Source: Clostridia bacterium
GTDB lineage: Bacteria > Bacillota > Clostridia > Christensenellales > Borkfalkiaceae
DNA: 34,773 bases
Reading direction: 5' to 3'
NCBI GenBank assembly: GCA_017453885.1
Contig: JAFTDZ010000109.1
Span: forward strand, 1 to 34,773
The notes below the pieces were generated by a model. That model saw only the letters and a list, made by a program, of their open reading frames with translations, made no database searches and had not been told where the DNA came from. The position numbers and the translations under genes were made by a program. Positions 3,064-22,417 of this stretch are shown here, in pieces (the first letter of the stretch is position 1; each line of letters begins with the position of its first letter).

Positions 3064-4260
3064 TTATACCTTCTCTATACGGAAATTGTCGAAATAATAC
3101 ACGCGGGATCCGTTTCCGCGCCTTTCCATAAACCCTAACTGAAAACTGTATTGACTGTTTATAAAGTTTTCAAGACTTGTAAGAGATATTGCCGTTTCCT
3201 GCCAGACTCCCTGCTCCGTAAGCGTAGTTCCCGCCCAATCCATCGCACCGTATCCGTTATAATAAGCATTTATCTCGACCAGATTTTCATACGTGGAACC
3301 TACAAGTTCAAAATCTCTGTAAGTGTCGAATTTAAGGACGTATTCGTCGAGATGTCCGACAAATTGCTTGAAATTTATCTCTTCTATCAGTGCGGGAACA
3401 AATTCTACCTTCGTCCAGGAAAACGATGTGGTATCATGATCGAATAATTCGACTTTCAGTACTTTTTCGCCCGACGGCGCAGTCAATCCGCAATCCGCCG
3501 CTCTGACCACCGAAACCGCCGGCAATATGCCCGCAGAATTATAGTTGGTCGGCTTGATCATAAGATGTTGATACGCATTTTCGAAATCGCATACTTCAAA
3601 ACTCGTTTCGGTCCGTTTCAGTATAAGCAGTTTTTCGGGACTGACGGAAACGTCGCTCAATATTATCTTCACGTCGTCAACATAAATCGTAGGCATCGTT
3701 TCCTGCGTCTTAAACATTATATATATCCCTTTACACATCGTCACGTCGTATTGCAATTCCACTACGGCGTATTGCGGAATATACTCTATTTCGTTCCATC
3801 CGGCATTTAACGCGAATTTCTGCTCCGGGCTTCTCGTGTTAGCCATTTTATCAAAATACAAACCGAGATTTATCTCGCAGACGCTTTCGGAATATATAGA
3901 CAACCTATATCCGTATATCTTCATTATGTCCGTATAACTGAACCCGAGAAGCGTCGATTCGAGCGGAAGATACATATAAGGATCCGCCATTCCGTTGCCC
4001 GGGCAGAGTTTCATGGACTTTTCTCCCGAACGAACGTATTCGGTATTTCGATTGAGAGTGATCGTTCCAAAATAAATAGGCATCCTTACGTTGAACAATC
4101 CCGCCTCGAAATCGTATAATACGGCTGTGGTTTCGGTTTTTTGCTCCGTTTCCGACAAATGGTCGTCCTTCTTTTCGATCGCGGCGTTATCCGAGCATGA
4201 AACCGCCATAATAAATACGACCGTAAATATAATCAGCAAACCCAATATCCTTTTTTTCAT
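3064..4260 (-). CDS. Lipoprotein with two carbohydrate-binding-like (jelly-roll) modules
   Basis: 398 aa. The start MKKRILG at 4260 is preferred over an upstream ATG at 4272 because a GGGGTG site sits 5 nt before it; it begins 1 bp after the stop of the upstream gene. A hydrophobic signal ends in MAVSC, a lipobox-like site. Two similar halves follow: about 48-210 opens with YDFEAG and closes with IYVDDVKI, and about 225-398 opens with CDFENA and closes with YYFDNFRI. This opening DFE plus closing DNF/DDV pattern is typical of non-catalytic beta-sandwich modules attached to glycosidases. No enzyme motif is visible. The gene is co-transcribed with GH123-like proteins, so binding of a surface glycan is the likely role, but the ligand cannot be read from the sequence. 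Confidence 0.82.
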   Translation of the reverse strand: MKKRILGLLIIFTVVFIMAVSCSDNAAIEKKDDHLSETEQKTETTAVLYDFEAGLFNVRMPIYFGTITLNRNTEYVRSGEKSMKLCPGNGMADPYMYLPLESTLLGFSYTDIMKIYGYRLSIYSESVCEINLGLYFDKMANTRSPEQKFALNAGWNEIEYIPQYAVVELQYDVTMCKGIYIMFKTQETMPTIYVDDVKIILSDVSVSPEKLLILKRTETSFEVCDFENAYQHLMIKPTNYNSAGILPAVSVVRAADCGLTAPSGEKVLKVELFDHDTTSFSWTKVEFVPALIEEINFKQFVGHLDEYVLKFDTYRDFELVGSTYENLVEINAYYNGYGAMDWAGTTLTEQGVWQETAISLTSLENFINSQYSFQLGFMERRGNGSRVYYFDNFRIEKV

Positions 4261-4261
4261 A

Positions 4262-6676
4262 TTACACCCCATATATCACAATACTACCTATGCCTATTTC
4301 CGTCGTGCCGGAGACCGCTACGGTTATTTCCGTGACTTCTCCGTTTCTTTCCCAGTTCACCGACGAGAACAAGTCGAGAATAAGTTGATTTTTGCCCGAC
4401 GAGAACGTCCCCGTAAGAACTTGCACTTTTCCGTATTTACTGTAAGTTACGTATATACGGAACAGCGCCGTTTCTCCGTAATTATACATGTCAACGATGT
4501 ATTTACCCGTGTCGGCATTTATCTCTTTCACGCTGTTGTGTCCTATGCTCACGGACTTATATTCCGAGGCGCCGCCAAGAACTATCTTCCAATACTCGCC
4601 TATGCGTTGAGTATCTGTCACATCGCCGCCGAGTTTTAATTCCACTACGTCGTTCGGTGCGGTGAATAATTTTTGCTTTCCGCCTATATACATACTGAAC
4701 TCAACCGTCTTATCGCCGTTTACCGCTTTTATCAAGAAATAGTTTTTGTCTTTATCAAGCGATTTACGCACCGTATAAACTCCGCCCTGCGGCGATATCT
4801 TAACGTCGTCCGAATAAAGTTCCGTGCCAGAAACGGCAGTCGCCGTAAGGACGTATTCGCTTATACCCGAAACAACGTTTTCGGTTATATCCGTAATAAA
4901 TACGCCGGTTTTGTTTATCGCCATTTCGAGAACGCTCAATAAAACATCTCTCGAACTTTCAAATTCTTTCGCCCCGCCGCCCGTCATATGCGCTCCGCTG
5001 TAAAACGAAGACGCTATGGTACGTATTATTTTAGACGCGTCCACTCCGTGTTCGGCATATTTCGCTTTCAGAATTTTTATAAGTTCGTAATCTTCCATAC
5101 TGTCGCGTATCGCGTCGAACCTTATCGTGCCTATCGGTCCGTCCACTTCGTACATTTTTCCGGGATAAACGAGATATCCGTCGCCGTTCGCCCCTTGCCC
5201 GCGGCTCGCTTCGGAATAAGGATCTTCCATATAATAAGAATCATTGCCCATACCCGTCACGTGAAAAGTATAATTCCATAACAAATTGCCGGTTATATCG
5301 TATTCCGCCATCATCCAACCTATGGCGTTCGCGCTTACCAGCGTGTCGTCGGTATGATAAGTAGGATACGGGAATTTAGGATCGTTACATGTGTACCACC
5401 ACTGTTCCGCTCCGTTGTAATATCCCGCCCTTTCTTCTGGGGAATCGTAGCCGTCGGGCTTGCCGCAAACACTGACGTAATTCGGATAATACCACCTGTT
5501 TCCGTCCGCGTCTTTAAGTATCGAATAATATCTGTGCGCAGTGCCGTAATCGTCGCTCGCATAATCGGTAACGACAAGCGCGACTTTTCCTACACTTTCC
5601 ACTATTTGACGACCGATCTCCGTTTGGAACGCGGTTTCCACGCTTAGTTCGGCCACTGTTTCGTCAAGCATTGCTTTGTATTTTTCAACGTAACCGGAAA
5701 CTGTTCCGGTCGTGTCCTGCCAAAGGAAAGGTTCGTCTATGCTTGACGCAAACAGCGCAAGTTTATCGACCATGTTTTCGCCGACTTCAAGACTTTTTCT
5801 CGCACAAGCGACTATCTGATTTTTAACGTATTCCGCCGGACCGTCTATCATGCCGAGCGTCGATATCCCTTTTTTGTACCATTTATACCACTCTTCGGCA
5901 TAATCACTTGTAGTCATAACGTGCGTCGGAGATATCCTGTGGTCGATAGCGTATTGTGTATATTTATCCTGCATTTCCTGCGAAATATCCATTTCCATCG
6001 AATAAATATATCCGTTTCCGCCGAAAAGACTTTTTGAAGTCGTTTCGCTCGGCACGGTGACGTCGTACACCTTCAATTCGATCGGCATCGTCAAATTCTT
6101 ATCTCCGACAGTGATCGTCGCCGTACCCGAATAGTTGCCATCCTTTGCATCCGACGGAATAAAGAAATTTATCCATGCACCGCCGTTTTCGCCTTTTCTC
6201 ACTACATTCTGCTTATAGAGAACGGCGTTTTCCTGTGGGATGATCGCATCTGGATACATGCCTGTCGGCGCGCCGTTACCGTAATAATTGCGCGAAACTT
6301 TGGTATATTTTAATGTAAATACTTCAAAATTCGTATTGGCTATCACCGCCCCCGAAGTATGCACGAGATTGCTTACCGAAACGGTAAACGACAACTCGTC
6401 TTTTGCGGTAACTATTATTTGACCGCTCTCATACTCGTTTTTCGCCGAAGACAAGACGATTTTGTCCGTCCGTAAGGAAGAATACTCTTTCGCGTCTACC
6501 GTTGCAAGCACTTTTTCGGTAGCGGGAACACTCCATATTTCGCAATCGGCGTTGCTTATACTCCCGCTTCCGTCGGATGAATTATTATCTCCGCCGTTCT
6601 GCGGCGCAGTCTGTCCGCAACCAGAAAAAGAGAGAACAAGCGCGATTGATAAAATAAACGCTGATAATTTTCTCAT
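4262..6676 (-). CDS. DUF4091/GH123-like glycosidase, lipoprotein
   Basis: 804 aa, preceded by AAAGGAG 7 nt before the ATG. The signal peptide ends in SFSGC (Cys20), so the enzyme is probably displayed on the outer face of the membrane. A beta-sandwich N-terminal region (about 55-210) is followed by a TIM-barrel-like region. The sequence SSIDEPFLW holds an adjacent Asp-Glu pair (about 314-315) matching the catalytic DE pair of GH123 beta-N-acetylgalactosaminidases; further family marks are NGDGYLVYPG and the RFDAIRDSMEDYE block near 525-545. The C-terminal about 200 residues look like added beta-sandwich domains. It is a paralogue of the next upstream gene, sharing SYHIDD/TYHTDD and GDG-LYPG blocks. 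Family membership is firm; activity on N-acetylgalactosamine is not, because DUF4091 relatives are poorly characterised. Confidence 0.85.
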   Translation of the reverse strand: MRKLSAFILSIALVLSFSGCGQTAPQNGGDNNSSDGSGSISNADCEIWSVPATEKVLATVDAKEYSSLRTDKIVLSSAKNEYESGQIIVTAKDELSFTVSVSNLVHTSGAVIANTNFEVFTLKYTKVSRNYYGNGAPTGMYPDAIIPQENAVLYKQNVVRKGENGGAWINFFIPSDAKDGNYSGTATITVGDKNLTMPIELKVYDVTVPSETTSKSLFGGNGYIYSMEMDISQEMQDKYTQYAIDHRISPTHVMTTSDYAEEWYKWYKKGISTLGMIDGPAEYVKNQIVACARKSLEVGENMVDKLALFASSIDEPFLWQDTTGTVSGYVEKYKAMLDETVAELSVETAFQTEIGRQIVESVGKVALVVTDYASDDYGTAHRYYSILKDADGNRWYYPNYVSVCGKPDGYDSPEERAGYYNGAEQWWYTCNDPKFPYPTYHTDDTLVSANAIGWMMAEYDITGNLLWNYTFHVTGMGNDSYYMEDPYSEASRGQGANGDGYLVYPGKMYEVDGPIGTIRFDAIRDSMEDYELIKILKAKYAEHGVDASKIIRTIASSFYSGAHMTGGGAKEFESSRDVLLSVLEMAINKTGVFITDITENVVSGISEYVLTATAVSGTELYSDDVKISPQGGVYTVRKSLDKDKNYFLIKAVNGDKTVEFSMYIGGKQKLFTAPNDVVELKLGGDVTDTQRIGEYWKIVLGGASEYKSVSIGHNSVKEINADTGKYIVDMYNYGETALFRIYVTYSKYGKVQVLTGTFSSGKNQLILDLFSSVNWERNGEVTEITVAVSGTTEIGIGSIVIYGV

Positions 6677-6692
6677 TTTACAACTCCTTTGA

Positions 6693-8909
6693 TCATTTTT
6701 TTAAATATATTTCCCCGAAACCGTATTCTCCGCTTTCGAAAAATTCAAATACCAACTTTGGAATGTTTTTTGCCCCGTCGATAAGCCTTATGCGATTCCA
6801 ACCCGTTCCGACTTCTCCTGCAAAGAGTTCTTCTCCGTCCGATAAAACTTTATATCCTGCTTTTTTCGTGGCCCTTATGAGAATATCAGCCGAAACATAT
6901 CGCTTTGCGACTTTTGATAATTCCAACCGCAGTTCGGGCTTGTTTCCCGGAAGAACAACATTTATTTCCCTTCGTATGTCGTCGCGGTTTATCGTGATAC
7001 TTCCCTTATTTACCGAAAAAACGCCTTTTTCATATAATTTTTCGTGCGGAATTATTTTCACTTTATTTTTTAACGGAAAAAATAAGTTTTTTTTGTCTTT
7101 TCCGATAAAAAACTCCGCATAGCTTGCGTTTTTTTCGGGATAAATCAATTGCGGTTCACCGTTTTCCCCTGTGAATCGACCATCCGAATAATATGCGTCC
7201 GAGCCACTTTCCGATCTTATTACGAAAACTTTTCTCAAACCGAGCTTTTCATAGGAAACCGTTGTTGTGTAATTTACATATAATTCGTAAAGTCTTATCA
7301 ACGTATCCCTTATTCTACGGAATTTCCCGTAGAAAGGATCAATTTTTATTCCGTCTGTAAACTCTGAAACGAGCAACGCAAATAACTTGCTGAAATCCAA
7401 GCCTTTTCGCCCATACTCTTTCTTTAAAAACTTTATTATTTCATACTCTTCATATCCGGATCTTATTGCTTTCAGTCTGATCGAACAAACGGGACCGAAT
7501 ATTCCGTAAGGCTTTCCGGGATATAGAAGAGCGCCGTCACCGTTCGCACCCGTCCCCATGTGAGCAAGAGAATAGGGATCGTCGAAAAAACGCATAGTGC
7601 CCGTAGTGTTGCATTCCTTAAAGAAATTTGCGCACCAGTACAGATTGCCCTCGATTCCGTATATCCCCATAAACCATCCGACCATCCGCGCGGCATACCC
7701 CGCGTCATCGATATGATAACTCGGATATGGCGCATTCGGAGTGTTGCAACCATACCACCACAATTCTTTTTGTCCTGAATATAAACTTCTTTGTCCGACG
7801 CTGTCTAATCCGTCGAAACGCGGACATAAAACAGTTTTTTCATTATAAACATATTTCGTGCCGTCGTCTTTTTTTACGGGACGCATAGTTACATTCGGTC
7901 TGTCTCTGTAATCGGTTATTAAGTGCGTGATTCCTTTCGCCGACTCAATCAGTTGTTTCCCGAAATCGTTTTTAAGGCGGTCGTCACTTTCGCATAACTC
8001 TATGAATCTTTGTACCGTTTCGTTAAATTTTCGCACGTGATATCCGACTTTGCCATCTGGATAAGAGCAATAAAACGGTTCGTCGATCATCCAGTCGTAG
8101 TAAACGACGTATGAAAACAAATCGATCTCCGTCTCAATGCTTTTTTCCTTCAACTGAATAAGTCTTGACAGTAAATCTTCATAGTCGGGAGTGTTTCCAT
8201 ATCTTTCGTTTTTTTCTTCCGCATAAGGAGACGGGATATTGACCGTGTTTGCACCGCGCGAAAGATATTCGGCAATGTCGTCCGCCCAAGAGGTTTTTCC
8301 GTCGGAATCTGGAATCGCCGAACATACGCGATGTCTTAAAAGGCAGTCGTTATATGCTTTGACCATTTCTTTCGACGTTTCGCCTTCATAATGAGCCATA
8401 TGTTCGCCGTTCAACGTAAAAATGCTTTTATGCGTTATTTCCGCAGGCAATTCCGCCGCACAAACTTCAAGCCTGACGACGATACCGATATCGTTTATAC
8501 GAAATACCCCCGAATAAACACCCGGAATCTGCTCTCTTGGAACAGTCACATCTATCCATATACAGACGTTTCCGTTGCCGGTTTCGTTTTCCCCGTGAAA
8601 AACGGGCGAATTTATCGGTATAAGCGCATCGGGATACCAACCTATGGGGAAACCGTTTTTTTGCCAATTTTTATCGACATAAATATACTTCTCGTAATAC
8701 AGTGCGAAATTATCTGCCGAAAAAACATTGCCTTCCCCGTCGAAAAGATCTTCGACCTTTATTCCGACCGTTTGTTTATCGTTGCCGAAAACCGCAATCT
8801 GACTGCTGTCTGTGCCGCCTTTCAAAGCGGTAAGGGTTAATTCGTGCTTTTCGACTATTTTATCGTATTTCAGTATCCTTTCGCAGGAATCGGCGCAACA
8901 GATCAACAT
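6693..8909 (-). CDS. DUF4091/GH123-like protein lacking a signal peptide
   Basis: 738 aa. It starts 6 bp after the substrate-binding protein gene and shows only a weak GGGAA about 14 nt upstream, so translation is perhaps coupled. The core is clearly homologous to the adjacent lipoprotein: YPSYHIDDAGYAARMVGW, GDGALLYPGKP and the RLKAIRSGYEEYE block are all present, and WMIDEPFY at about 273-280 keeps the Asp-Glu pair (276-277) expected for GH123-type catalysis. Unlike its paralogue it has no hydrophobic leader: residue 15 already aligns to the mature N-terminal beta-sandwich of the other. The likely location is therefore the cytoplasm, which would suit hydrolysis of imported oligosaccharides. 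Alternatively the true start was lost by mutation or sequencing error. The substrate is unknown. Confidence 0.82.
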   Translation of the reverse strand: MLICCADSCERILKYDKIVEKHELTLTALKGGTDSSQIAVFGNDKQTVGIKVEDLFDGEGNVFSADNFALYYEKYIYVDKNWQKNGFPIGWYPDALIPINSPVFHGENETGNGNVCIWIDVTVPREQIPGVYSGVFRINDIGIVVRLEVCAAELPAEITHKSIFTLNGEHMAHYEGETSKEMVKAYNDCLLRHRVCSAIPDSDGKTSWADDIAEYLSRGANTVNIPSPYAEEKNERYGNTPDYEDLLSRLIQLKEKSIETEIDLFSYVVYYDWMIDEPFYCSYPDGKVGYHVRKFNETVQRFIELCESDDRLKNDFGKQLIESAKGITHLITDYRDRPNVTMRPVKKDDGTKYVYNEKTVLCPRFDGLDSVGQRSLYSGQKELWWYGCNTPNAPYPSYHIDDAGYAARMVGWFMGIYGIEGNLYWCANFFKECNTTGTMRFFDDPYSLAHMGTGANGDGALLYPGKPYGIFGPVCSIRLKAIRSGYEEYEIIKFLKKEYGRKGLDFSKLFALLVSEFTDGIKIDPFYGKFRRIRDTLIRLYELYVNYTTTVSYEKLGLRKVFVIRSESGSDAYYSDGRFTGENGEPQLIYPEKNASYAEFFIGKDKKNLFFPLKNKVKIIPHEKLYEKGVFSVNKGSITINRDDIRREINVVLPGNKPELRLELSKVAKRYVSADILIRATKKAGYKVLSDGEELFAGEVGTGWNRIRLIDGAKNIPKLVFEFFESGEYGFGEIYLKK

Positions 8910-8915: not shown

Positions 8916-10541
8916 TTAAAGCATTCCCGCATTTCTTAACGCAGTATTCCACATTGCGTTATTATTCGCAGTGTAATAATCAATAGCGTTCTGATACAAA
9001 TCCTGCGCACTCGTATTTGTATAAACGAAAGTATTGAAAATATCGCTCGTATTACTTCCCGCCAGAATATTAAATCCGCCGTAACGTTGAAAGTCCGACA
9101 CTTTATTGTTTAATATCCTTGTAAACGGCGTCTGTAAATATTCGCTTACTTTGGTCTGCAAATACAACGTTGCCGATTGCTTTTTGTTGAGTTCGGCATA
9201 TTTTTCGGAACTCTGCGTCATGAAATCATATTTATACGGAAGTTTCCCGCCAGAAGAATAGCATGCAAACAGTTCGTTGGCTCTATCGGTAGCCATGTAT
9301 CTTACGAAATCTATCGCAAGATCTTTTGCCGTCGCATAAGAAGGTATAACGGTATGACAACTTCCGTTATTGGTGTACATAACGCCCCTTGCTTCTTTAA
9401 CTCTGTCGAAATCTTTTTGAGAAACGCCGCTGACCGAAGAACCGGTCTTGCCTGCATCTATCTCATCTATCACTTCGCAAAGAGTCGTATCGTCGTTTAT
9501 CGTATCGAGTTTTTCTATAAGAGAACTTACAACCGGCGTTCTCATCATAGACATTGTATCCGTATATCCTTCCGACTTATATCCTTCGGCGAGATCTTTC
9601 ATTTCATTCGAGAACCAGTCTCCCGAAAACATAAATAAACCGCGTCTTAAAAGCAGATAACTTTGTCCCGTTATAAAATCACGGTTGGGCGAACTTCTGT
9701 CGTAATAGCCGTTTGCTTCGTCTAAAAGTCTATCAAGTATTTCCCAACTTCTCATTCTTCCTTTTTCATAAAGAACATTTATGGAATTACGCACTCCGTC
9801 TTCGTCTATCGCATACGAAAAGTTTTCAAAATTCTGAACCCCTTCGTATTGTGCCCACCATTGAGCCGTAATATATTCGCTATACGTTATTTGCGACGCT
9901 ATATAAGAATACGTAAAGGGATATTCGGCGTTCGAGCCGTTCCAACTTTTGACTTTATCCATTATCCCGAACATTTCTTCGGTCGTTCTCGGGACGTTAA
10001 GTCCGAGTTCTTCGAATAAAGTCGCATTATAAACTATTCCGCCGACACCGAGATTCCACGGAACGGAATTATAGTACGTTTTAGTCTCGCCGTAAGGCGT
10101 AAACCCGAGTGACGAATAAACGCTAGGAAGCAGTTTATCTTTGAATTTGACGTTCTCGCCCGGTACGTCCGATTCCAAGATGCAATCGGATATTTCAACG
10201 AGATCTTTCGTACCGAAATAAGAGTCGAGATTTCCGGACATTATAAGATCTATCGTGTTGCCTTTCCCTGCTGCCATACGATCTTCGCCGTAATTCGTCT
10301 GATCGTTTATCACGGTGAAATAAGAATAATTCGGATACTTTTCCTGCACCCAATCGAGCGTCCCGAAGTCTTTTAATAATTCTTCAAGCCACTCGTAGCC
10401 GTAACCCGCATTCCAAAGATAAACTTCAAGCGTGTTATCGTCGTCGGATGCAACATTTTTTTGGGCACATCCAAAAAAACCCGTCATTACAACGATAAGA
10501 GAAATAAACAAACTAATTTTTCTTAAAAATCTCTTTTTCAT
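8916..10541 (-). CDS. ABC transporter sugar-binding lipoprotein (extracellular solute-binding protein family 1 type)
   Basis: 541 aa, with AGGAAAGG just before the ATG. The signal peptide ends in TGFFGC, a lipobox, so the protein is tethered outside the membrane. The mature part opens with TLEVYLWNAGYGYEWLEEL, the usual first strand and helix of the large family-1 (UgpB/MalE/LplA-like) oligosaccharide-binding proteins, and later has the GGIVYNATLFEELGL block and a C-terminal FVRYMATDRANELF block seen in this family. The length is at the large end, like LplA-type binding proteins. It lies directly downstream of two permease genes but is set off by a 118-bp gap with its own predicted promoter, which would allow higher expression of the binding protein. 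The substrate is presumably an oligosaccharide released by the neighbouring enzymes. Confidence 0.9.
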   Translation of the reverse strand: MKKRFLRKISLFISLIVVMTGFFGCAQKNVASDDDNTLEVYLWNAGYGYEWLEELLKDFGTLDWVQEKYPNYSYFTVINDQTNYGEDRMAAGKGNTIDLIMSGNLDSYFGTKDLVEISDCILESDVPGENVKFKDKLLPSVYSSLGFTPYGETKTYYNSVPWNLGVGGIVYNATLFEELGLNVPRTTEEMFGIMDKVKSWNGSNAEYPFTYSYIASQITYSEYITAQWWAQYEGVQNFENFSYAIDEDGVRNSINVLYEKGRMRSWEILDRLLDEANGYYDRSSPNRDFITGQSYLLLRRGLFMFSGDWFSNEMKDLAEGYKSEGYTDTMSMMRTPVVSSLIEKLDTINDDTTLCEVIDEIDAGKTGSSVSGVSQKDFDRVKEARGVMYTNNGSCHTVIPSYATAKDLAIDFVRYMATDRANELFACYSSGGKLPYKYDFMTQSSEKYAELNKKQSATLYLQTKVSEYLQTPFTRILNNKVSDFQRYGGFNILAGSNTSDIFNTFVYTNTSAQDLYQNAIDYYTANNNAMWNTALRNAGML

Positions 10542-10588
10542 AAAAACCTTTCCTTATTTATAATTTTTTGTTTGTTTCATCTTTAATT

Positions 10589-10617: not shown

Positions 10618-10659
10618 TATCAAAAAAATGAAAACGAATTCCAGAAATTGTCATGCTTA

Positions 10660-11571
10660 TTAGCCTTTCAATCCACCAACGCTCAAACTCGTCATCATTT
10701 TATTCGAGAAAACGAGAAACACGAGCAACATCGGAATCATAGCGGTGACAAGTCCTGCATAATATATTGAGGTCTTCCCCGTCCTTAAAAGCGTATTTTG
10801 CACGGAATACATCCCGGCCGAAATAGTAAGATAAGACGGCATATACAAAAGCGATGTCATCGCGTCATTCCAACTTGCTATAAAAGCATTTACGAGCAAT
10901 ACGGTTATCATAGGTATCGCCTGCGGCAACATTATCTTGAAAAATACTGTAAATTCTCCGCCGCCGTCTATATATACCGCTTCCGCATAAGACATAGGTA
11001 AATTTTTGAAAAAACCATAATACAGAAGAAACGTCGTTCCCCCGCTACCGAGCGAACCCACTATAAAAAATAAGGGATTATTATAAAGTCCAAGGTCCTG
11101 ATAAAGCTTGAACCACGCTCCGCCTGTTCCGACTATCGGAATTATCATTCTGAACATTATAACAGCATATATAATATTCCTGCCGCGAAACTTAAAACGT
11201 GAAATAACATATGGATACCACGTTCCCAACAGTACCGACAACGGTAAAGGTAACAAAAATTGCCAAATATTGTTCCAAATCATATCAACCAAAGTAATAC
11301 CGCCGGGCGTTCTTATCATTTTATAAACATCGATATAATTCTGGAATCTCCAAGTTTTCGGCAGTTTAAATGCATTGCCGTTTACAAGATCGAGATTATA
11401 TTCAACAAACGGTTTGAAAGAATTTGTAATAAGCCAAAACAACATATACAATATGCTTGCCGAATACAATGAAAAAATTATGAAAAAGATTGTAAACACC
11501 ACTCTTTCTCCGCGCGATCTTCTAATTTTTTCTTTTCTGTATTTCGAGTTTATTCTAACATTATTTCTCAT
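10660..11571 (-). CDS. Carbohydrate ABC transporter permease (MalG/UgpE type)
   Basis: 303 aa from the ATG at 11571, which has GGAG 9 nt upstream; a TTG at 11592 that overlaps the previous stop is possible but fits a ribosome site less well. It is an inner-membrane protein with about six hydrophobic segments, and carries the cytoplasmic coupling loop (EAA motif) SYAEAVYIDGGGEFTVFFKI-LP near residues 205-228, which contacts the ATPase. The N-terminus, with a first helix followed by a long external loop mentioning FKPFVEYN, is typical of the second permease of CUT1 sugar importers. It pairs with the permease encoded just upstream and the binding lipoprotein just downstream. No ATPase gene is in the cluster, so a shared MsmX-like ATPase is inferred. 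Confidence 0.92.
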   Translation of the reverse strand: MRNNVRINSKYRKEKIRRSRGERVVFTIFFIIFSLYSASILYMLFWLITNSFKPFVEYNLDLVNGNAFKLPKTWRFQNYIDVYKMIRTPGGITLVDMIWNNIWQFLLPLPLSVLLGTWYPYVISRFKFRGRNIIYAVIMFRMIIPIVGTGGAWFKLYQDLGLYNNPLFFIVGSLGSGGTTFLLYYGFFKNLPMSYAEAVYIDGGGEFTVFFKIMLPQAIPMITVLLVNAFIASWNDAMTSLLYMPSYLTISAGMYSVQNTLLRTGKTSIYYAGLVTAMIPMLLVFLVFSNKMMTSLSVGGLKG

Positions 11572-11588
11572 AAATCTTGTCTCCAAAA

Positions 11589-12542
11589 TCAATATTCTAC
11601 AACCGGAACTTTTTCAGTAAGCCATTTCGTAAACAAAATGATCGGCAGTCCTATTGCGGTAAACACCATGCCGGCGGCGGATATCGTGCCGTATGTCCCC
11701 GTTCCCCCGAACGTTCCGTTTCCGTAAACTTCGGTAAACATCCAATACGCTAACGTCGTCGTTTCAAACTTCCCTTGCGTAAAATAAAGTATCGGTCCGC
11801 TTGCTCCGAATATTCCCGCCATGCTTATTATCAACATAGTCGCGAAAGTCGGCCAAATAAGCGGCAGAATAATACTGAAACACTCTCTGAACGGCGTACA
11901 ACCGTCTAATTTCGCCGCTTCTATGACTTCGACGGGAATTCTCGCAAGCGCGCCATGGTAAAAAAGCATTCCCGTAAAGCCCGTCCATATCGTAAAAAAT
12001 ATCAATATAGGCGTCGCCGTCAATGAGTTTTGTAACAATCCTTCCACGGGCAACGGACGGCCTATCATTTCCATGACCACGCCGACCGGACCGTTGGGTT
12101 TTATAAATTCAGCAAAGCAAGCCGCAAGACAAAGTCCGGGAATAATGGCCGGTAAATAGAAAACTATCCTGTAAAATTTCCAACCTAAAATCTTTTTATA
12201 TATGAAAAAAGAAAAAATAAGATTGAGAAACATCATCGCAATATCTTTTGCGAAATACTTGAATGTGTTAAACAGCGCTATCCTGAGCGTACCGTTGGTA
12301 TCTTTCAAGGATTCGAAAACTGCTAAAAAATTGTTGAACGTGAATTCTTTTGTCCTGTTATCCTGAAAAGCAAGTACGAAAGAACTCGTGTTCACGTAAA
12401 CGTAAAACACAAAAAAAGATACTATCGGAAAAAATATTCCACCGATAATAAAAACAGCTCTGTTTTTATTTATCGGTTTTTTTACCGCTCTACCGATTTT
12501 AACCCTTTTATCAGATAACGATTTTTCATCCGTATTAAACAT
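11589..12542 (-). CDS. Carbohydrate ABC transporter permease (MalF/UgpA type)
   Basis: 317 aa. The ATG at 12542 overlaps the end of the GH2 gene by 8 bp and has GGGAG 9 nt upstream, so translation is coupled. The protein has about six membrane segments and the EAA coupling loop IPVEVIEAAKLDGCTPFREC near residues 211-230, followed by FSIILPLIWP, as in first permeases (MalF/UgpA) of CUT1 importers. An N-terminal cytoplasmic stretch rich in Lys and Arg precedes the first helix. With the adjacent second permease it should form the heterodimeric channel that takes up oligosaccharides bound by the downstream lipoprotein. Confidence 0.92.
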   Translation of the reverse strand: MFNTDEKSLSDKRVKIGRAVKKPINKNRAVFIIGGIFFPIVSFFVFYVYVNTSSFVLAFQDNRTKEFTFNNFLAVFESLKDTNGTLRIALFNTFKYFAKDIAMMFLNLIFSFFIYKKILGWKFYRIVFYLPAIIPGLCLAACFAEFIKPNGPVGVVMEMIGRPLPVEGLLQNSLTATPILIFFTIWTGFTGMLFYHGALARIPVEVIEAAKLDGCTPFRECFSIILPLIWPTFATMLIISMAGIFGASGPILYFTQGKFETTTLAYWMFTEVYGNGTFGGTGTYGTISAAGMVFTAIGLPIILFTKWLTEKVPVVEY

Positions 12543-14976
12543 TTGTGCCGTCTCCCAATATTTTATTTATGCTTATAAAAGAAATACTTTTTTTTATGTT
12601 TTCTATATCGCCGAAATACCTGAAAATAATACTCTTTTCTTTTTTATCGGTAAAATCCAAATAGTTTTCACTCAAATCTATATTTTCTGCGCCCGTATCA
12701 ACATATAGCTTGTTGACAAATCCGTTCGCACGTATTTTCACGATGCATTTGTCTTCGTCTTTGCGAAAAACATCAAAAGCAATCGTCGGTTCAACGTATT
12801 TATAGTCTTTCGGTTTCACGAAAAGCATCGTTTCTTTTGAAACCGGTTCATCGTCTTGTCCGAAAAGCTCCGCGACCATAAAAACCGAATCGACTCTTTT
12901 TAAGACGGTTTCGGAAAGTCTAATCCTCCCTATTGTTTTTACGGAAAACCCCAAAACGGAAACCTCGATTATTCCTTCTTCCAAAACGCCAAAACCATTA
13001 TCAGATATTTGCCATCTCGCTATACCATGAAACACATTCCGCGATTCGTTTGCAACCGAGAAAATCACGCTGTCTCCTTCGCATTCCGCTATCAGAAGAA
13101 CGGGAGCATAATATTTTTTCAATTCATAGGAAAGAGCCTTCTTCCTTCCGAAATAATCGACTGAAGAGTGAGATATACAAGGCCAACAATCGTTTAACTG
13201 CCAGTATATCGCTCCCATACATTTACCGCGCGTTTTTCGGAAATACTTTACTCCCTCGCCTATCGCTTGTGCCTGCAATAATTGAGAAAGGTATACCAGT
13301 TCTTTTAATTTTCCAACTTTGCCATACTTATCTTTTACATCGTGTAAGATCTTCTCTATACCGTCGAAGACTCCCGTCCGTTCACGCGAACGCAACACTG
13401 CGGGAATAAGTTCATTGCCGTCTGTTTCGGTAAACATTTTTATCGTGCGAATGTCGGGTAAAGATTCGTATCCAAATTCGGAACAGAACCTCACGTCGTC
13501 GCCTTTATAATAATCAAACGGTTTATCGGCAAACCAAACCCCCCAACAGTGCGAATCCCCGTAAGCGGGATTGTTCGTCTTATCAAAATTGCCCGTATTC
13601 GACGGAGAAGACTGCCAGTAAAATGTTTCGGGAGCGATCTCGCGCATTATTCTCGGAAATTCTTTCTCAAACAACCAAGTATAATCTTTTACTGCGTCTT
13701 TATTCTCCGTTCTGTCCTTTAATTTGTCTTCACCTTCGTTATTACCGCATATCAATCCCAAACACGCTCTGTGTTTTACGGCGTTTACGTTTTCTATCAA
13801 TTCGGCGACGTACTCTTCAAGTCCGCCATCCTCCAAACGAACGTCTTCACACGCTATCATATAGTCAAGCCACACAATCAGCCCATTTTTATCGCAAAAA
13901 TCATAGAAATATTCGTCCGGATAGTATCCTCCGCCCCATACCCTTATCAAATTACAATTCTGAAAAAGCGCGACTTCAAGTACATTCTGAACTTTCTTCC
14001 TTGTTATATGCGACAAGATACTGTCGGCAGGCACGTAATTCGCACCTAAAGCGAATATCTTTACCGAATTGACTTCAATCTCGAATTTTCTACCGATCTC
14101 GTCCGTTTCGACGTTTATTTTCATGGTTCTTAAACCGATATTACGGATGAGCGTATCCACCACCGTTCCGTCCGAAATCATTTCGATTTTTAAGCAATAC
14201 AGGTTTTGTTCGCCGTATCCGCGCGGCCACCACAATTTCGGGGAAGGCACGAATAATTCAACGTCGTTTTTTTCTGTGGTCGCACTCGCTATCTTCTCTT
14301 CCCCATATAAAAGCGTATATCTGAAAATCTCTTTCCCCAATGCATCGGCTTTGACTTTTATGCGCAAAGTCGCGCCGTCCGGACTATGCTCCTGATAAAT
14401 ATCCGTACTCTTTATGCGCGAATCAAAAGACAGCAATTCCGCGCCACCGATTATCCCGATATCCGGTAATACGGGAGCCCAATCCCAACCGAATGTAAAT
14501 ATCGGTTTCCGAATTTGCGCCGCACCTTTCATTGTTATAACTTCCGACCAAACGGGATGTGTTTTTTCTTTTTCCGCAATATATTTTGTAGGAGAGTAAA
14601 ATCGTATTTTCAGACTGTTCTTTCCCAAACGTAATATCTTTTCGCAATCAAATTCATAACTACGAAAAAAATTCTTCGTTCTTCCTATCCGCTGTCCGTT
14701 CAACAATATTTCACAAATCGTATCGAGCCCGCGAAAACGTAAAATCTGTTTTTGCCTTTTTAATTGCTCCGTCCCTACGATAAATTCAGCGTCGAATTCA
14801 TAGTCGTTATCGCTCAAAGCGAGCATTTCCTTTTCGTTTCCGTCATAATACGGATGTCTGATCGCACCGTTATCTATCAGGACGGAAAAAACGGAACAAG
14901 GAGTTTTCGCATAAAAAACGCCGTATTCCCCTACGTTTATACGCCAATTGTCTATTGAATATTTTATCATATCCAA
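12535..14976 (-). CDS. GH2 beta-mannosidase-like glycosidase
   Basis: 813 aa from a TTG with GGAGAA 8 nt upstream; an ATG two codons later (14970) overlaps the upstream stop as ATGA and is a real alternative. Architecture is that of GH2: a jelly-roll sugar-binding domain (about 1-180), an Ig-like domain (about 190-290), and a TIM barrel (about 300-620). NLIRVWGGGYYPDEYFYDFCD and CGNNEGE (acid/base Glu about 414) and RFCSEFGYESLP (nucleophile Glu about 500) match beta-mannosidases rather than beta-galactosidases. There is no signal peptide, so it acts in the cytoplasm, presumably removing terminal beta-mannosyl residues from imported oligosaccharides. Beta-mannosidase is the best fit, but GH2 exo-glucosaminidases share some motifs. 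Confidence 0.9.
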   Translation of the reverse strand: MDMIKYSIDNWRINVGEYGVFYAKTPCSVFSVLIDNGAIRHPYYDGNEKEMLALSDNDYEFDAEFIVGTEQLKRQKQILRFRGLDTICEILLNGQRIGRTKNFFRSYEFDCEKILRLGKNSLKIRFYSPTKYIAEKEKTHPVWSEVITMKGAAQIRKPIFTFGWDWAPVLPDIGIIGGAELLSFDSRIKSTDIYQEHSPDGATLRIKVKADALGKEIFRYTLLYGEEKIASATTEKNDVELFVPSPKLWWPRGYGEQNLYCLKIEMISDGTVVDTLIRNIGLRTMKINVETDEIGRKFEIEVNSVKIFALGANYVPADSILSHITRKKVQNVLEVALFQNCNLIRVWGGGYYPDEYFYDFCDKNGLIVWLDYMIACEDVRLEDGGLEEYVAELIENVNAVKHRACLGLICGNNEGEDKLKDRTENKDAVKDYTWLFEKEFPRIMREIAPETFYWQSSPSNTGNFDKTNNPAYGDSHCWGVWFADKPFDYYKGDDVRFCSEFGYESLPDIRTIKMFTETDGNELIPAVLRSRERTGVFDGIEKILHDVKDKYGKVGKLKELVYLSQLLQAQAIGEGVKYFRKTRGKCMGAIYWQLNDCWPCISHSSVDYFGRKKALSYELKKYYAPVLLIAECEGDSVIFSVANESRNVFHGIARWQISDNGFGVLEEGIIEVSVLGFSVKTIGRIRLSETVLKRVDSVFMVAELFGQDDEPVSKETMLFVKPKDYKYVEPTIAFDVFRKDEDKCIVKIRANGFVNKLYVDTGAENIDLSENYLDFTDKKEKSIIFRYFGDIENIKKSISFISINKILGDGTNV

Positions 14977-16301
14977 TTTTGATATTCTCCGATAAGATTT
15001 TTATATTGATAAAAAGAATTTTTCGGATATCTCTTGCAAGTTTCGAAATCGACGTAAACAAGCCCGAATCTACGGGTAAATCCCGACGACCACTCGAAAT
15101 TGTCCATTAAAGTCCACACGTAGTAACCTCTTACATCCACACCGTCGCACTTCGCTTTTATTAGTTCCGCCAGATACCGCCTTATGTATTCCGTCCTTAT
15201 CTGGTCTTCAACTTTTCCATCTATAAGACATTCGGAAAGAGAACAACCGTTTTCAGTCACATAGACGGGCTTGCCGTACCTTTTCTGCATGAATTTCGGG
15301 CCGTAATACATCGCTTTCGCCGTATTCATATAATCTCCCGACATATCGCCGAAAGTCGCGTTTGGAGAAGGTTTGGAAAAAACTATTTCGCCTAAAGCGT
15401 TCAGCTCCACGTTAGTCCCTATGTAAATGTTAAGACCGAGAAAATCGGGAATGCATTTTATGTATTCCATATCCCCGTCTTTAACAAAAGAAAGGTCAAT
15501 GTTTTGCTTTTCCACAAGTCTTTCGTCGTACTTGCCGAAAAATACGGGATCCCAAAATGTCGTATTACCAAACAACTCGTCGCCACACGTAAACATCGCT
15601 TTATACGCCGCGGCTTCCGCTTTCGCTTCGTTGGGTATAAGCGTTCTCGTCGTATTAACCATGCCGACTTTCACTTTGCATTTTGAATACTTTCTTAAAG
15701 AATAAGTCGCTGCCGCATTACAAAGCAACAAATTATGTAGGCATTCAAACGCTTGTTGCTTGCTCATTGCCGCATATCCGTTTCCGACGGGACGAAGACA
15801 CATAAAATCAATTACCGCTTCCGCTTCGTTCATAACGGAAAATAATTCTACTCTGTCACCGAAATTTTCAGCAACGATCTTCCCATATTCTTCAAACCTC
15901 TCTACGATTTCCCGATTTGAAAAACCGCCGTCCTCAAAAAGTTTTACGGGCATATCCCAATGGAAAAGCGTTACCATTGGCTTGATGTTTCTCTCAATTA
16001 ATCCGTCGATAAGTTTGTTATAATAATCTATTCCTTCTTTATTAACGGAACCGAAACCGTCAGGTTGTATCCTCGGCCACGATATCGAAAATCTATAACT
16101 GTTTACTCCGAGTTCTTTCAATAAATCCAAATCTTCCTGAACTTTATTATAAGAGTCGCACGCTTTGAAACAGGTCATCCCGTTTTGTATAAGACCTTTG
16201 CGCGAAAATTCGTCCCAGATTGACAAGCCCTTTCCGCCTTTATTATATGCGCCTTCGATTTGAGTCGCACTTGTTGCAACGCCGAATAAAAATTTATCCA
16301 T
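14967..16301 (-). CDS. GH1 beta-glycosidase (beta-glucosidase family)
   Basis: 444 aa, the normal family length, with GGAG 7 nt before the ATG. The GH1 N-terminal signature FLFGVATSATQIEGA is at residues 4-18 and the RFSISWPRIQP strand at about 70-80. The acid/base Glu is in the sequence VMNEAEAV (about 159); the usual NEP is NEA here. The nucleophile is in YVTENGCS (Glu about 350), and the aglycone-end WTLMDNFEWSSGF and GLVYVDFET blocks are intact. There is no signal peptide, so it is cytoplasmic. It lies between the TIM-barrel isomerase gene and the beta-mannosidase gene. The likely job is release of beta-linked glucose or a related sugar from an imported oligosaccharide or aryl glycoside. 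Lack of a family-6-phosphate recognition site was not tested. Confidence 0.93.
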   Translation of the reverse strand: MDKFLFGVATSATQIEGAYNKGGKGLSIWDEFSRKGLIQNGMTCFKACDSYNKVQEDLDLLKELGVNSYRFSISWPRIQPDGFGSVNKEGIDYYNKLIDGLIERNIKPMVTLFHWDMPVKLFEDGGFSNREIVERFEEYGKIVAENFGDRVELFSVMNEAEAVIDFMCLRPVGNGYAAMSKQQAFECLHNLLLCNAAATYSLRKYSKCKVKVGMVNTTRTLIPNEAKAEAAAYKAMFTCGDELFGNTTFWDPVFFGKYDERLVEKQNIDLSFVKDGDMEYIKCIPDFLGLNIYIGTNVELNALGEIVFSKPSPNATFGDMSGDYMNTAKAMYYGPKFMQKRYGKPVYVTENGCSLSECLIDGKVEDQIRTEYIRRYLAELIKAKCDGVDVRGYYVWTLMDNFEWSSGFTRRFGLVYVDFETCKRYPKNSFYQYKNLIGEYQNWI

Positions 16302-16315: not shown

Positions 16316-17155
16316 TTATATTTCAGCCTTTAAAAATGTTACCGCTTTACGAATATCTGAAACAGGATCTTCGCCGACTTCTCTCTCGACCGTCAAAAAT
16401 CCGTCGTAACCGACCGATTTCAATGCGGCGATATAATCTTTCCACGGAACGTCGCCGTCGCCGAGCGGCGTTTCGATGAAAAAACCTTCTTCGGATTGAT
16501 GTTCTACTCCGATCACATCCGAAATATAAAACGCTTCCGAATTTATCTTTTTTAATAATTTACCGTCTTTAGCGTGAGTGTGTACGATATAATCTTTAAG
16601 GTTTTTTACGCCTTCGACGGGATTTTCGCCTTGAACCATAGCAAGATTTGCGGGATCGAAATTCACGCCTTTACCTTTACTGTCGATCTCATCGAGAAAA
16701 CTTTTAAGCCGTGCGGAAGGTTCGGGACCTGTTTCGATTGCGAAATGTGCGCCAACATTTGCCGCACAGTCCGCTAATTCCTTATAAACGGACGCCATCG
16801 TTTCATACATCTTCGTATTTCTGTTTTCGGGAATCACGCCGATATGCGTCGTGATAGCGTTCACCCCGAACTCTTCGGCAAGATCAACGACTTTTTTCTG
16901 ATGTTCTATCTGTTCACGCATTTCATCGGGAAAATAAAACATTCTGTGTCCCATATCTCCGCACAACGCGGAAATTTCCATTTCGTTATCCGCTAAAAAT
17001 GCTTTTATGTTTTTAATTTCATCTTTGCTCATGCCGACGTATATCGTAGGGCTGCCGGCATATATCTGAAATCCGTTCACACCCATTTTTTTCGCAAGCA
17101 AAACGCCTTCTTTGAATTCCTTTCTCAAACTTTCGAGAAAAATACCTATTTTCAT
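16316..17155 (-). CDS. Sugar isomerase/epimerase-like TIM barrel (xylose isomerase-like AP2 superfamily)
   Basis: 279 aa. The ATG overlaps the upstream stop as ATGA and follows GGAGGTGGAG. The fold family is evident from KIGIFLESLRKEFKEG at the start, AIETGPEP (metal ligand Glu at about 140), GVNFDPANL (Asp), VHTHAKDG (His and Asp) and GFLTVEREVG (Glu) near the end: the Glu/Asp/His/Glu metal-binding set of xylose-isomerase-like barrels such as IolE, IolI and DgpC. It is cytoplasmic. It sits after two Gfo/Idh oxidoreductases. In known gut pathways such barrels epimerise keto-sugars or eliminate the aglycone from 3-keto-glycosides; either role would fit here. The exact reaction cannot be read from the sequence. 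Confidence 0.87.
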   Translation of the reverse strand: MKIGIFLESLRKEFKEGVLLAKKMGVNGFQIYAGSPTIYVGMSKDEIKNIKAFLADNEMEISALCGDMGHRMFYFPDEMREQIEHQKKVVDLAEEFGVNAITTHIGVIPENRNTKMYETMASVYKELADCAANVGAHFAIETGPEPSARLKSFLDEIDSKGKGVNFDPANLAMVQGENPVEGVKNLKDYIVHTHAKDGKLLKKINSEAFYISDVIGVEHQSEEGFFIETPLGDGDVPWKDYIAALKSVGYDGFLTVEREVGEDPVSDIRKAVTFLKAEI

Positions 17156-18195
17156 TTATTATCTCCACCTCCAAAAATGATTTTTTCTCCGCTTTTAGCG
17201 CTTTCATAAATGCTGTTTATTATTTTTTGTGTTTTCAGTGCTTCTCGCGCGCTTATTTCAAGCCTTTCTTTACCTTGCAACGCTTTGTAGAACTGTTCTA
17301 TTTGCCTTACGTGCATAAAACCCCAGTAATCTTTTCCGCCGCCATAAACTACGTCGGGGGCTGTCGTTTCCGCTCTTTCGGTACTTCCGTTGTTATACTC
17401 TATATAAGCATAGTCGTAAGTTAAAAAAGCCTTGCCTTTCTCAGCGAAGAATTTTATTGCCACAGGTTCGTCGCAACCGTAATTATTCATACAATAAAAA
17501 CCGTATTTAACCCCGTTTTTATATTCGATCATGCCTTCCGCGGTATCTTCGACCGTTACCGTTTTATGGCCGCGGTTAGCGATACTTGCGCCTATGCTGA
17601 CAATCTCGTCGTCGATTATCCAGTTTGCAAGATCGAGCGAATGTATGACCTGATCGATAACTACACCGCCGCCTTCTTTATCCCAAGTCCCTTTCCAGTC
17701 GGATTCCGAATAATAAGAGTCGGGACGCGACCATGTAAGTGTGGAAACCACGCTTTCGATTTTACCGAGTTTCCCGCTCGCAACAGCCTTTTTTACGAGC
17801 ACGGAAGAATCGTTATAGCGACATTGAAATATTACGCCGTACAATAGATTTTTCCGTTCCGCCATTTCTACGGTTTTCAGGCAATCTTCATATCCGATCC
17901 CCATCGGCTTTTCGGTCAAAACGGCAATACCTTTTTCAAAACACGCTCTCGCCATAGGCGTATGAAGATAATGTGGCGTGCATATATGAACGGCGTCGGG
18001 TTTTTCCTTGTCGAGCATTTCAATATAGTCGGTATACGCTCTGCAACCGTATTTCCCCGCCGTTTCTTTTGCCCGATCGGTTTTAATATCGCACACTGCG
18101 ACGAGTTCGGCAATGTCTTTCAGATATTTTATCGCGCCGAGATGCATAACGCTTATCCGTCCGACGCCGATCACAGCTATCCTTAATTTGTCCAT
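17152..18195 (-). CDS. Gfo/Idh/MocA-family NAD(P)-dependent oxidoreductase (second copy)
   Basis: 347 aa. Its ATG lies 1 bp after the stop of the first oxidoreductase. The N-terminal Rossmann domain starts RIAVIGVGRISVMHL, followed by VCDIKTDRA. The family EKP motif is in VLTEKPMGIG (about 95-104, Lys catalytic), and VVIDQVIHSLDLANWI (about 175-190) holds the conserved His/Asp catalytic segment that begins the C-terminal dehydratase-like domain. It would oxidise or reduce a secondary hydroxyl of a sugar or polyol in the cytoplasm using NAD(H) or NADP(H). It is only distantly similar to the adjacent oxidoreductase, so two different substrates or a hetero-oligomer are possible. Confidence 0.92.
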   Translation of the reverse strand: MDKLRIAVIGVGRISVMHLGAIKYLKDIAELVAVCDIKTDRAKETAGKYGCRAYTDYIEMLDKEKPDAVHICTPHYLHTPMARACFEKGIAVLTEKPMGIGYEDCLKTVEMAERKNLLYGVIFQCRYNDSSVLVKKAVASGKLGKIESVVSTLTWSRPDSYYSESDWKGTWDKEGGGVVIDQVIHSLDLANWIIDDEIVSIGASIANRGHKTVTVEDTAEGMIEYKNGVKYGFYCMNNYGCDEPVAIKFFAEKGKAFLTYDYAYIEYNNGSTERAETTAPDVVYGGGKDYWGFMHVRQIEQFYKALQGKERLEISAREALKTQKIINSIYESAKSGEKIIFGGGDNK

Positions 18196-18196
18196 A

Positions 18197-19258
18197 TCAC
18201 AGTATAACTTCTTTTCCCGTTTCGGCGGATTCGTATATCGCTTGCAGTATCTTCATTTCGTTCAAACCCTGTTCGCTCGTAAAATCGGGCTTTGCATTAC
18301 CCTGTATAACGTCAATAAAATGCACGAGATTTTGTCCGTGTCCGCCGTCGGGTTCAGGTATTCTCGGCGCTATATCCACAAGGCGACCGCACTCTTCGGT
18401 ATATATTCGATTATCTTCCGGAATATAACTGAATTTCAATCCCGCTTTTTCACCACGGAGTTCCAAAAAAGCCGTCTCCTTTTCTATATTCGACGCCCAA
18501 CTGAATTCTATCTGCAAACAAGCCCCGTTTTCAAATCGTATAAACCCCATCGCAAGATCCTCTACATCAAAAATCCCGTCGTCTTTCTTCTCTCCGAACT
18601 TCGAGTTAACGGAATCGCTTATGTCGCTGTTCGCAAATTTATTGTAAACGCAACCCGAGACCGAGACCGCTTTGGGATTGCCCATAAAATAAACGGCAAG
18701 GTCTATCATGTGAACGCCGAGATCGACCAAAGGACCGCCCCCCGATTGCGCTTTGGTAGTAAACCAGCCGCCTTTCCCGGGAATCCCGCGCCTTCTAATT
18801 ATGCCGCAACGCCCGCAATATAACTCGCCCGCTTTACCTTCGTCGATATATTGTTTGAAAAATTTAGATACGTTGAGATGCCGGTTGTTGCGCATCGCCA
18901 TATAAACTTTGCCACTCTCTTTTTCCGCGTCTATTAGTTTCTGCATTTCCGAAACGGAAATCGCATCCGGTTTTTCGGTGAAAACGTGCAAACCCTTTTT
19001 CAACGCCGCAACTCCTACGACAGAGTGTAAATAATTTGGCGCGCAAATGTCCACTGCTTCGACTTCGGGATCGTTTATAAGATCCTGCCAAGCCGTATAT
19101 CTATGCGCATCGGGCGGAAATTCCGGATCTTCCATTTTTGCCTCGACAATGTCGCAAAGCGCTACGATCTCAACGTTTTGCATTTTTTTGTATGCAGGCA
19201 AATGTGCATATTTGAATATCCCGCCGCAACCAACAATTCCTAGTTTTATTTTTTTCAT
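18197..19258 (-). CDS. Gfo/Idh/MocA-family NAD(P)-dependent oxidoreductase (first gene of the operon)
   Basis: 353 aa from the ATG at 19258, chosen because the Rossmann signature KKIKLGIVGCGGIFKYAHLP begins right there; upstream TTG (19309) and ATG (19270) starts would only add a non-conserved leader. Ribosome binding is weak, which is odd for the first gene of an operon. EKP motif: VFTEKPDAIS. The catalytic segment is PLVDLGVHMIDLAVYFMG. A Cys-rich insertion reading YCGRCGIIRRR near residue 140 replaces the usual linker. The protein should act on a sugar or glycoside hydroxyl in the cytoplasm. With the second oxidoreductase and the TIM barrel it forms a three-gene head of the operon suggestive of 3-keto-glycoside or inositol-like chemistry. 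Confidence 0.9.
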   Translation of the reverse strand: MKKIKLGIVGCGGIFKYAHLPAYKKMQNVEIVALCDIVEAKMEDPEFPPDAHRYTAWQDLINDPEVEAVDICAPNYLHSVVGVAALKKGLHVFTEKPDAISVSEMQKLIDAEKESGKVYMAMRNNRHLNVSKFFKQYIDEGKAGELYCGRCGIIRRRGIPGKGGWFTTKAQSGGGPLVDLGVHMIDLAVYFMGNPKAVSVSGCVYNKFANSDISDSVNSKFGEKKDDGIFDVEDLAMGFIRFENGACLQIEFSWASNIEKETAFLELRGEKAGLKFSYIPEDNRIYTEECGRLVDIAPRIPEPDGGHGQNLVHFIDVIQGNAKPDFTSEQGLNEMKILQAIYESAETGKEVIL

Positions 19259-19465: not shown

Positions 19466-20350
19466 ATGAACTATACCTACGATTTGGCGAAAATAGCAAA
19501 GAGGGAATCCGAAACGGGGAAAACACCGTCGGAAATGAAAAATCCTGCTAAATACGAATCCGACACTGATAGCTCCATCGTGCTGGAAACATCCAATACT
19601 TTTGACAGATGGGGCAATTACCATTTTCATCGCCATTTGGAATTATATTACATTATTTCAGGGGAAAAAGTGATTTTTTTGGGAAATAAAAAATATATCC
19701 TAAAAAAAGACGACGTTTTAATAATCGAAAGTTTTGTTCAACATCTCGTTCTGCCTGACAACGATTCAAGCAGACAATATCTTATAAAGTTGCCGGATAA
19801 TTACTGCTCGCAATATTTATCTTTTATGAAAGGGAGAAAATTAAAAACACCTTTCTTATCAAGCGAAAAAGCCATAGGGCTTAAAAAGTATTTTCATACA
19901 ATCGTAACTGAACACAACATGATGAATCCGATCCTCTTGTATGCAAATATAAATATGCTTTTGGGCGAGATAATCTCTTTATGCGACGTAGAAGAAAATA
20001 TGATCAACATCTCTAACGACAGGATTGAATTGATCGTAAATTATATAAACAAACACTACAGAGAAAAAATAAATCTAAAAACGCTTGCCGATGTTTTTAA
20101 TTACTCTCCTTATTATTTTTCACGTCTTTTTAATAGTCTATTCAATATCGGCGTACCAGAATATATTGCTTATGTCAGACTGAATAATACGATAGAAACT
20201 TTTATGACGACAGACATGTTTTTAACTGAAATTGCTTTGGCGAACGGATTTAATAGCATGCAGACTTTTTACCGGACATTTCATAAATACTACGGAGATA
20301 TTTCTGTTTCCGATTTAAAAAAAGTGGACGCAATAAAAGGAAGCAAGTAA
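19466..20350 (+). CDS. AraC-family transcriptional regulator
   Basis: 294 aa, preceded by AGGAGG 14 nt upstream. The N-terminal half (about 40-130) is a cupin-like ligand-binding domain: HFHRHLELYYIISGE gives the HxH plus Glu pattern and DDVLIIESFVQHLVL the second cupin motif. The C-terminal about 100 residues hold two helix-turn-helix units: INLKTLADVFNYSPYYFSRL and FLTEIALANGFNSMQTFYRT, followed by HKYYG, as in AraC/XylS proteins. It is divergent from the 12-gene glycan operon with a 207-bp shared promoter region, so it most likely senses a mono- or disaccharide product and activates that operon. Codon and base composition are AT-rich, like region A. Confidence 0.93.
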   Translation: MNYTYDLAKIAKRESETGKTPSEMKNPAKYESDTDSSIVLETSNTFDRWGNYHFHRHLELYYIISGEKVIFLGNKKYILKKDDVLIIESFVQHLVLPDNDSSRQYLIKLPDNYCSQYLSFMKGRKLKTPFLSSEKAIGLKKYFHTIVTEHNMMNPILLYANINMLLGEIISLCDVEENMINISNDRIELIVNYINKHYREKINLKTLADVFNYSPYYFSRLFNSLFNIGVPEYIAYVRLNNTIETFMTTDMFLTEIALANGFNSMQTFYRTFHKYYGDISVSDLKKVDAIKGSK

Positions 20351-22384: not shown

Positions 22385-22417
22385 TGACAAGTTCTCCTTT
22401 CGCTTGTTTCATGAATT

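Follow-up and report, generated by a model that had tools for sequence, protein, structure and literature searches.

The window analysed here is a DNA stretch of 34,773 nt from Clostridia bacterium, a member of the Borkfalkiaceae (contig JAFTDZ010000109.1 of assembly GCA_017453885.1; contig C282 in our set), whose genome assembly comprises 2.27 Mb in 302 contigs and is 81% complete. The organism is probably a gut-type clostridium close to Borkfalkia, a genus assigned to Christensenellales by NCBI. At positions 16316-19258, on the minus strand, we confirmed the genes of two Gfo/Idh/MocA dehydrogenases, DH1 and DH2, and of a PF01261 TIM barrel, called the ETG barrel below after a conserved motif. 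This cassette is probably a 3-keto redox module of one kind or another. As to the particular kind, we tentatively favour a redox-neutral 3-keto-sugar relay, in which an isomerase or epimerase step between two redox steps would feed the glycoside hydrolases (GH) of families GH1 and GH2 encoded next to it.

The three genes overlap or lie 1 bp apart and stand at the head of an 11-gene operon (Table 1), with an AraC regulator gene divergent on the opposite side. Pfam searches assigned both dehydrogenases to PF01408/PF22725/PF02894 (E values 1e-24 and 6e-29) and the barrel to PF01261 (6e-34). These assignments and the coordinates agree with an earlier reading made from the DNA letters alone (hereafter the sequence-only reading), which had placed two Gfo/Idh/MocA genes, a barrel, a GH1 and a GH2 at the operon head. 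The spacings along the 11 genes are 1, -4, 14, -10, -8, -4, 118, 6, 16 and -11 bp, and this tightness indicates one closely coupled operon. In G030, a 95% complete comparison genome from a relative that shares the operon, the genes follow one another in an unchanged order, DH1-DH2-TIM-GH1-GH2-PermA-PermB-SBP-GH123, with protein identities of 46-85%; thus the arrangement is not due to chance. The AraC gene is divergent in G030 too (57% identity) and at many related loci.

We infer on good grounds that DH1 is a glycoside 3-dehydrogenase, because of its clade, the motifs that it shares and the ThuA and hydratase-like barrel genes beside its orthologues. The nearest solved structures were DgpA (7xr9, 1.9e-59) and DgpA1 (5e-52), followed by levoglucosan dehydrogenase (LGDH; 9e-29). 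In a maximum-likelihood tree, DH1 formed a clade with DgpA, DgpA1, YcjS and dehydrogenases neighbouring ETG-type barrels (support 100/99), and a larger tree recovered the clade of DH1, DgpA and YcjS (99/96); DH1 lay outside both the LGDH clade and the group of IolG proteins that score above the curated cut-off for IolG. An exclusive pairing of DgpA with DH1 was rejected by the approximately unbiased (AU) test (p 0.012). DH1, DgpA and YcjS have in common the lysine of EKP and an RR-x-x-x-P segment that precedes GGGPL(V/I)D(L/I)G-H, and DH1 is 34% identical to DgpA and 30% to YcjS. At six of seven DH1 orthologues (53-60% identity), found in other families of the same order, a gene for ThuA (four loci) and/or for a barrel of 322 amino acids (aa) (three loci) lies within 3 kb on the same strand. 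The second-best PDB match of the 322-aa barrel is the 2-hydroxy-3-keto-glucal hydratase AtHYD (4.9e-9), and the rhizobial ThuAB system has been linked to 3-keto derivatives of both trehalose and maltitol (PMC4765114, PMC7404187).

DH2 is proposed to be a 3-keto reductase or a second C3 dehydrogenase. Its PDB matches include 3q2i (5e-44) and 8tdi (1e-37), and it grouped with uronoside C3-dehydrogenases, namely WlbA (support 100/98) and glucuronide-3-dehydrogenase (8tdi; 98/96), in agreement with the larger tree. When its AlphaFold2 (AF2) model (predicted local distance difference test score, pLDDT, 84) was submitted to Foldseek, WlbA ranked 1 and 8tdi ranked 10. Immediately before a conserved His, DH2 carries an Asp in place of the Asn of WlbA and 8tdi, so uronoside specificity should not be assumed. 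At ten loci with DH2 orthologues (45-54% identity, other clostridial families), a DgpA/YcjS-clade enzyme adjoins at three, an ETG barrel at four, the 322-aa barrel at two and ThuA at two, these counts being small samples with no shuffled control.

A four-gene module consisting of a dehydrogenase, a Gfo/Idh-like protein of only about 280 aa, a DH2 orthologue and an ETG barrel was observed in the same bacterial family at eight loci (L040, L042, L043, L044, L045, L046, L048 and L051), mostly beside a divergent gene that is AraC-like in several. The 280-aa product was considered as a second barrel of the Lgd kind and rejected, since Pfam showed it, by a weak match, to be a short Gfo/Idh-like protein.

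The AF2 model of the ETG barrel is a confident TIM barrel (pLDDT 95). In the Foldseek search the uncharacterised 3tva was nearest, then Art22, SCO6571, UlaE and tagatose 3-epimerases, while AtHYD, DfgA, YcjR and DgpC ranked 17, 30, 37 and 43, respectively. Alignment with characterised PF01261 members indicates that the metal-ligand positions E141, D167, H194 and E257 are intact. Residue 143, two past E141, is a Gly, and the resulting E-T-G motif is kept in all 80 barrel homologues. At that place the DgpC-type enzymes (CGE) and OGE bear a catalytic His; the OGE variant H134A is dead, and the equivalent His is important in CGE (PMC8563793, PMC10628242). In our alignment the His is present in AtHYD and IolE and absent in UlaE, FrlC, Hyi, YgbM, YcjR and a tagatose 3-epimerase. 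The sequence profile of the barrel matched the DgpC chain 7xrf at an E value of only 0.26 and YcjR (6wn6) at only 0.0011, and profile-profile scores against epimerases, lyases and hydratases do not discriminate between these classes for it. With regard to the phylogenetic check proposed in the sequence-only reading, the trees placed DH1 with DgpA/YcjS and DH2 with glucuronide-3-dehydrogenase/WlbA, both outside IolG, and the sequence comparisons showed no close kinship of the barrel with DgpC.

ETG barrel relatives numbered at least 565 in one species-level genome collection. They occur together with 3-dehydrogenases in clostridia and Paenibacillaceae, and also on contigs labelled Planctomycetota, Latescibacterota, Lentisphaerae and Verrucomicrobia; no paper on the family was found in the literature searched. 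A second barrel neighbours the ETG barrel in 38 of the 80 homologues, and an E-x-H segment was seen in 35. Operons of Paenibacillus and Cohnella usually run from AraC through a dehydrogenase and an E-N-H-G barrel to the E-T-G barrel (loci L062, L071, L078, L080, L115, L117, L122 and L124), and the literature searched gave no description of this two-barrel module. The window operon has no second barrel, and the window contains no partner of the E-N-H-G type.

The partners that a known cleavage pathway would employ were sought in the genomes. For DgpB (PF19906, CGDB) there were zero matches in the source genome, in line with the sequence-only reading, which had found no small DgpB-like partner, and none above the cut-off in 61 genomes of the family. 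ThuA was not found in the source genome, and neither CGDB nor ThuA was found in G030. No PF01261 protein with a His at the place of residue 143 was found in either genome. A search for a DgpC/DgpB partner with PF19906 and among all PF01261 proteins of the source genome and two relatives gave none that fits. Since G030 lacks a His-bearing barrel, ThuA and CGDB, that relative has no enzyme recognised as an eliminase or hydratase to draw on, while GH1 and GH2 are available.

The relay that we favour would proceed as follows. The C3 hydroxyl of an imported glycoside would be oxidised by DH1 with NAD+, as its clade and neighbours suggest. The next step, the least certain, falls to the ETG barrel, which would bind the 3-keto sugar with a divalent metal held by Glu141, Asp167, His194 and Glu257 and shift a proton beside the ketone, at C2 or C4, resulting in isomerisation or epimerisation; this step is suggested by the fold, the metal-ligand set and the missing His. 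DH2 would then reduce the new 3-keto sugar and regenerate NAD+, and GH1 together with the GH2 beta-mannosidase would hydrolyse the product as such enzymes ordinarily do. For the operon as a whole we propose import and digestion of a gluco- or manno-configured glycoside under AraC regulation. On the best reading, the logic of such a relay resembles that of YcjQRS of Escherichia coli and not that of DgpABC.

YcjQRS converts a D-guloside to a D-glucoside via 3-keto intermediates, and its genes lie in ycjM-T. Like the window operon, the ycj operon encodes a binding protein and two permeases, two dehydrogenases, one metal-dependent barrel and two glycoside-processing enzymes. YcjS, a D-glucoside 3-dehydrogenase, belongs to the wider clade of DH1 with the support given above, and YcjR, like the ETG barrel, is without the lyase His. 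There are also differences. The window has hydrolases where ycj has phosphorylases, and DH2 is a Gfo/Idh/MocA protein, most closely related among characterised enzymes to 8tdi and WlbA.

Several observations weigh against the relay. YcjQ is a zinc dehydrogenase of the medium-chain dehydrogenase/reductase (MDR) type, to which DH2 is not related, and the remote profile match and Foldseek rank show that the ETG barrel is not an orthologue of YcjR, the 3-dehydro-D-guloside 4-epimerase. By profile comparison the ETG barrel is no closer to epimerases than it is to barrels that bear the His. The slot that it fills in DH2 operons is taken at other loci by ThuA or a hydratase-like barrel, an exchange which favours cleavage, and the position of the ETG barrel beside an E-N-H-G barrel in Paenibacillus and Cohnella is reminiscent of eliminase-plus-hydratase pairs. 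Moreover, the incompleteness of the source genome tempers what was not found there.

The main rival is an O-glycoside route of oxidation, elimination, hydration and reduction with a non-canonical barrel, which we regard as rather unlikely. Here DH1 would oxidise C3, the barrel alone would eliminate the aglycone and hydrate the glycal, and DH2 would turn 3-keto-glucose or 3-keto-mannose into the sugar, as in the Lgd (LgdA-B1-B2-C) pathway or the Agrobacterium GlycDH/OGE/HYD/Gfo pathway, which share the same logic of dehydrogenase, barrel(s) and reductase. That the ETG barrel is exchanged with ThuA and AtHYD-like barrels in both DH1 and DH2 operons argues for this route, as do the match of the 322-aa barrel to AtHYD and a D-P motif common to AtHYD and the ETG barrel; a single protein for both steps has a precedent in LgdB2, which is bifunctional and Mn-dependent (PMC7676230). 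Against it, the His that is essential in OGE, important in CGE and present in AtHYD and IolE is replaced by Gly throughout the ETG family, and the window operon has one barrel, without E-x-H or H-x-H, where those pathways have two (eliminase and hydratase), with no His-bearing barrel in the source genome or G030 to stand in. The identity of DH1 with levoglucosan dehydrogenase was rejected, as the LgdA model NF052479 gave 119 bits, its cut-off being 650, and the LGDH clade is separate. With regard to the ThuAB trehalose pathway, other clostridia have ThuA next to their orthologues of DH1 and DH2, whereas none was found in this genome or in G030.

The remaining explanations fare worse. It is improbable that DH1 or DH2 oxidises an aldose at C1 to a lactone (for example from mannose) for an aldonate pathway in which the barrel would be an isomerase. 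The locus that speaks for it, in genome G207 (L033, 2-19712), has DH1, a GH127, a mannosidase-type GH2 and an ETG barrel near the genes of gluconolactonase, an RraA-like protein, KDPG aldolase, an FGGY kinase and the mannonate dehydratase UxuA, and is possibly a mannoside-to-mannonate route; but the window operon lacks the gluconolactonase, aldolase, kinase and UxuA genes and none of these was seen in the G030 region, both DH1 and DH2 group with C3 dehydrogenases, and the Gfo6 xylose 1-dehydrogenase model scored far under its cut-off. The C-glycoside cleavage of the DgpA/DgpC type that the sequence-only reading had put forward is very improbable. Its idea of C3 oxidation is supported as far as DH1 goes, being in line with the DgpA match, the DgpA-YcjS clade and the neighbours, and a xylose-isomerase-like barrel is indeed present. 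The DgpC-like cleavage is not supported; against it speak the distant profile, E-T-G in place of the E-x-H of DgpC with its His general base and the lack of DgpB, and further the rejected DgpA+DH1 pairing and the O-glycosidases encoded downstream. As two of the three testable defining features of the C-glycoside deglycosylation system DgpABC (strain PUE) are missing, the cassette is not that system, although DgpA shares the wider clade of DH1. Hardly any weight is left for inositol or inosose catabolism by an IolG and an IolE/IolI-like barrel, which the sequence-only reading had taken as an equal alternative. IolG and IolE belong to the same superfamilies as the cassette proteins, but the true IolGs form a separate 100/100 clade, the equivalog models scored far under their cut-offs (TIGR04380 for IolG, 90 and 136 of 355 bits; TIGR04379 for IolE, 34 of 290), and no further iol genes are among the annotated window genes. 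The cassette thus belongs neither to inositol catabolism nor to levoglucosan degradation and is probably a variant among the redox systems that act on 3-keto-glycosides.

The features of the operon are summarised in Table 1. The best PDB matches of the GH2 protein were the GH2 beta-mannosidases 2vjx/2je8 (1.6e-105), and the GH1 protein scored 429 bits with TIGR03356, under the cut-off of 478.5. The importer genes (8916-12542) encode a binding protein and two permeases, and there is no ATPase gene within the operon. The sister operon in G030 (L032) begins with an additional alkaline-phosphatase-like gene (6201-7310), which the window operon does not have. Outside the operon, an open reading frame (ORF) of 315 aa with zero Pfam matches (21443-22390) lies downstream of a sporulation-type sigma factor gene (22828-23577) and of a membrane ORF (23532-24368) that we take to be SpoIIGA-like, and a GH78-like (alpha-L-rhamnosidase) protein is encoded at 29388-31469.

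Table 1. Genes of the cassette, its operon and the divergent regulator in the window
Feature	Position	Strand	Evidence
DH1, Gfo/Idh/MocA NAD(P) dehydrogenase, 353 aa	18197..19258	-	Pfam, PDB match, trees, motifs
DH2, Gfo/Idh/MocA NAD(P) dehydrogenase, 347 aa	17152..18195	-	Pfam, PDB matches, trees, AF2/Foldseek
ETG barrel, PF01261 predicted metal-dependent TIM barrel, 279 aa	16316..17155	-	Pfam, AF2, Foldseek, alignment
GH1 beta-glucosidase-like, catalytic Glu motifs MNEAE, VTENG	14967..16301	-	Pfam 1.7e-125
GH2 beta-mannosidase, catalytic motifs GNNE, SEFG	12535..14976	-	Pfam; PDB match
ABC sugar permease A	11589..12542	-	PF00528
ABC sugar permease B	10660..11592	-	PF00528
ABC sugar-binding lipoprotein	8916..10541	-	PF01547; TIGR03850 99 bits, under cut-off
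GH123-like protein b	6693..8909	-	PF13320/PF22680
GH123-like lipoprotein a	4262..6676	-	PF13320/PF22680
Possible glycan-binding lipoprotein, final operon gene	3064..4272	-	PF18329 3.5e-05, just under cut-off
Divergent AraC-family regulator with cupin domain	19466..20350	+	PF12833/PF00165/PF07883

Non-hydrolytic processing of glycosides by way of keto sugars is a young field in which few operons have been characterised. The cassette is an example of a recurring dehydrogenase pair whose third enzyme can be exchanged, and it draws attention to a barrel family, as yet uncharacterised, without the lyase His. This family might form a new class of 3-keto-glycoside enzymes, either 3-keto epimerases or lyases with a base other than His, although we hold this only tentatively. 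If it does, dehydrogenases from the DH1 and DH2 clades would, in pairs, provide a shared chassis into which different third enzymes fit: an ETG barrel, an AtHYD-like barrel or ThuA. An epimerase would alter the sugar unit on the intact glycoside, for example a mannoside to a glucoside at C2, and a standard glycosidase would then remove it. Whether gut clostridia rebuild sugars while the glycoside is still intact, or cut by elimination, depends on the activity of the barrel.

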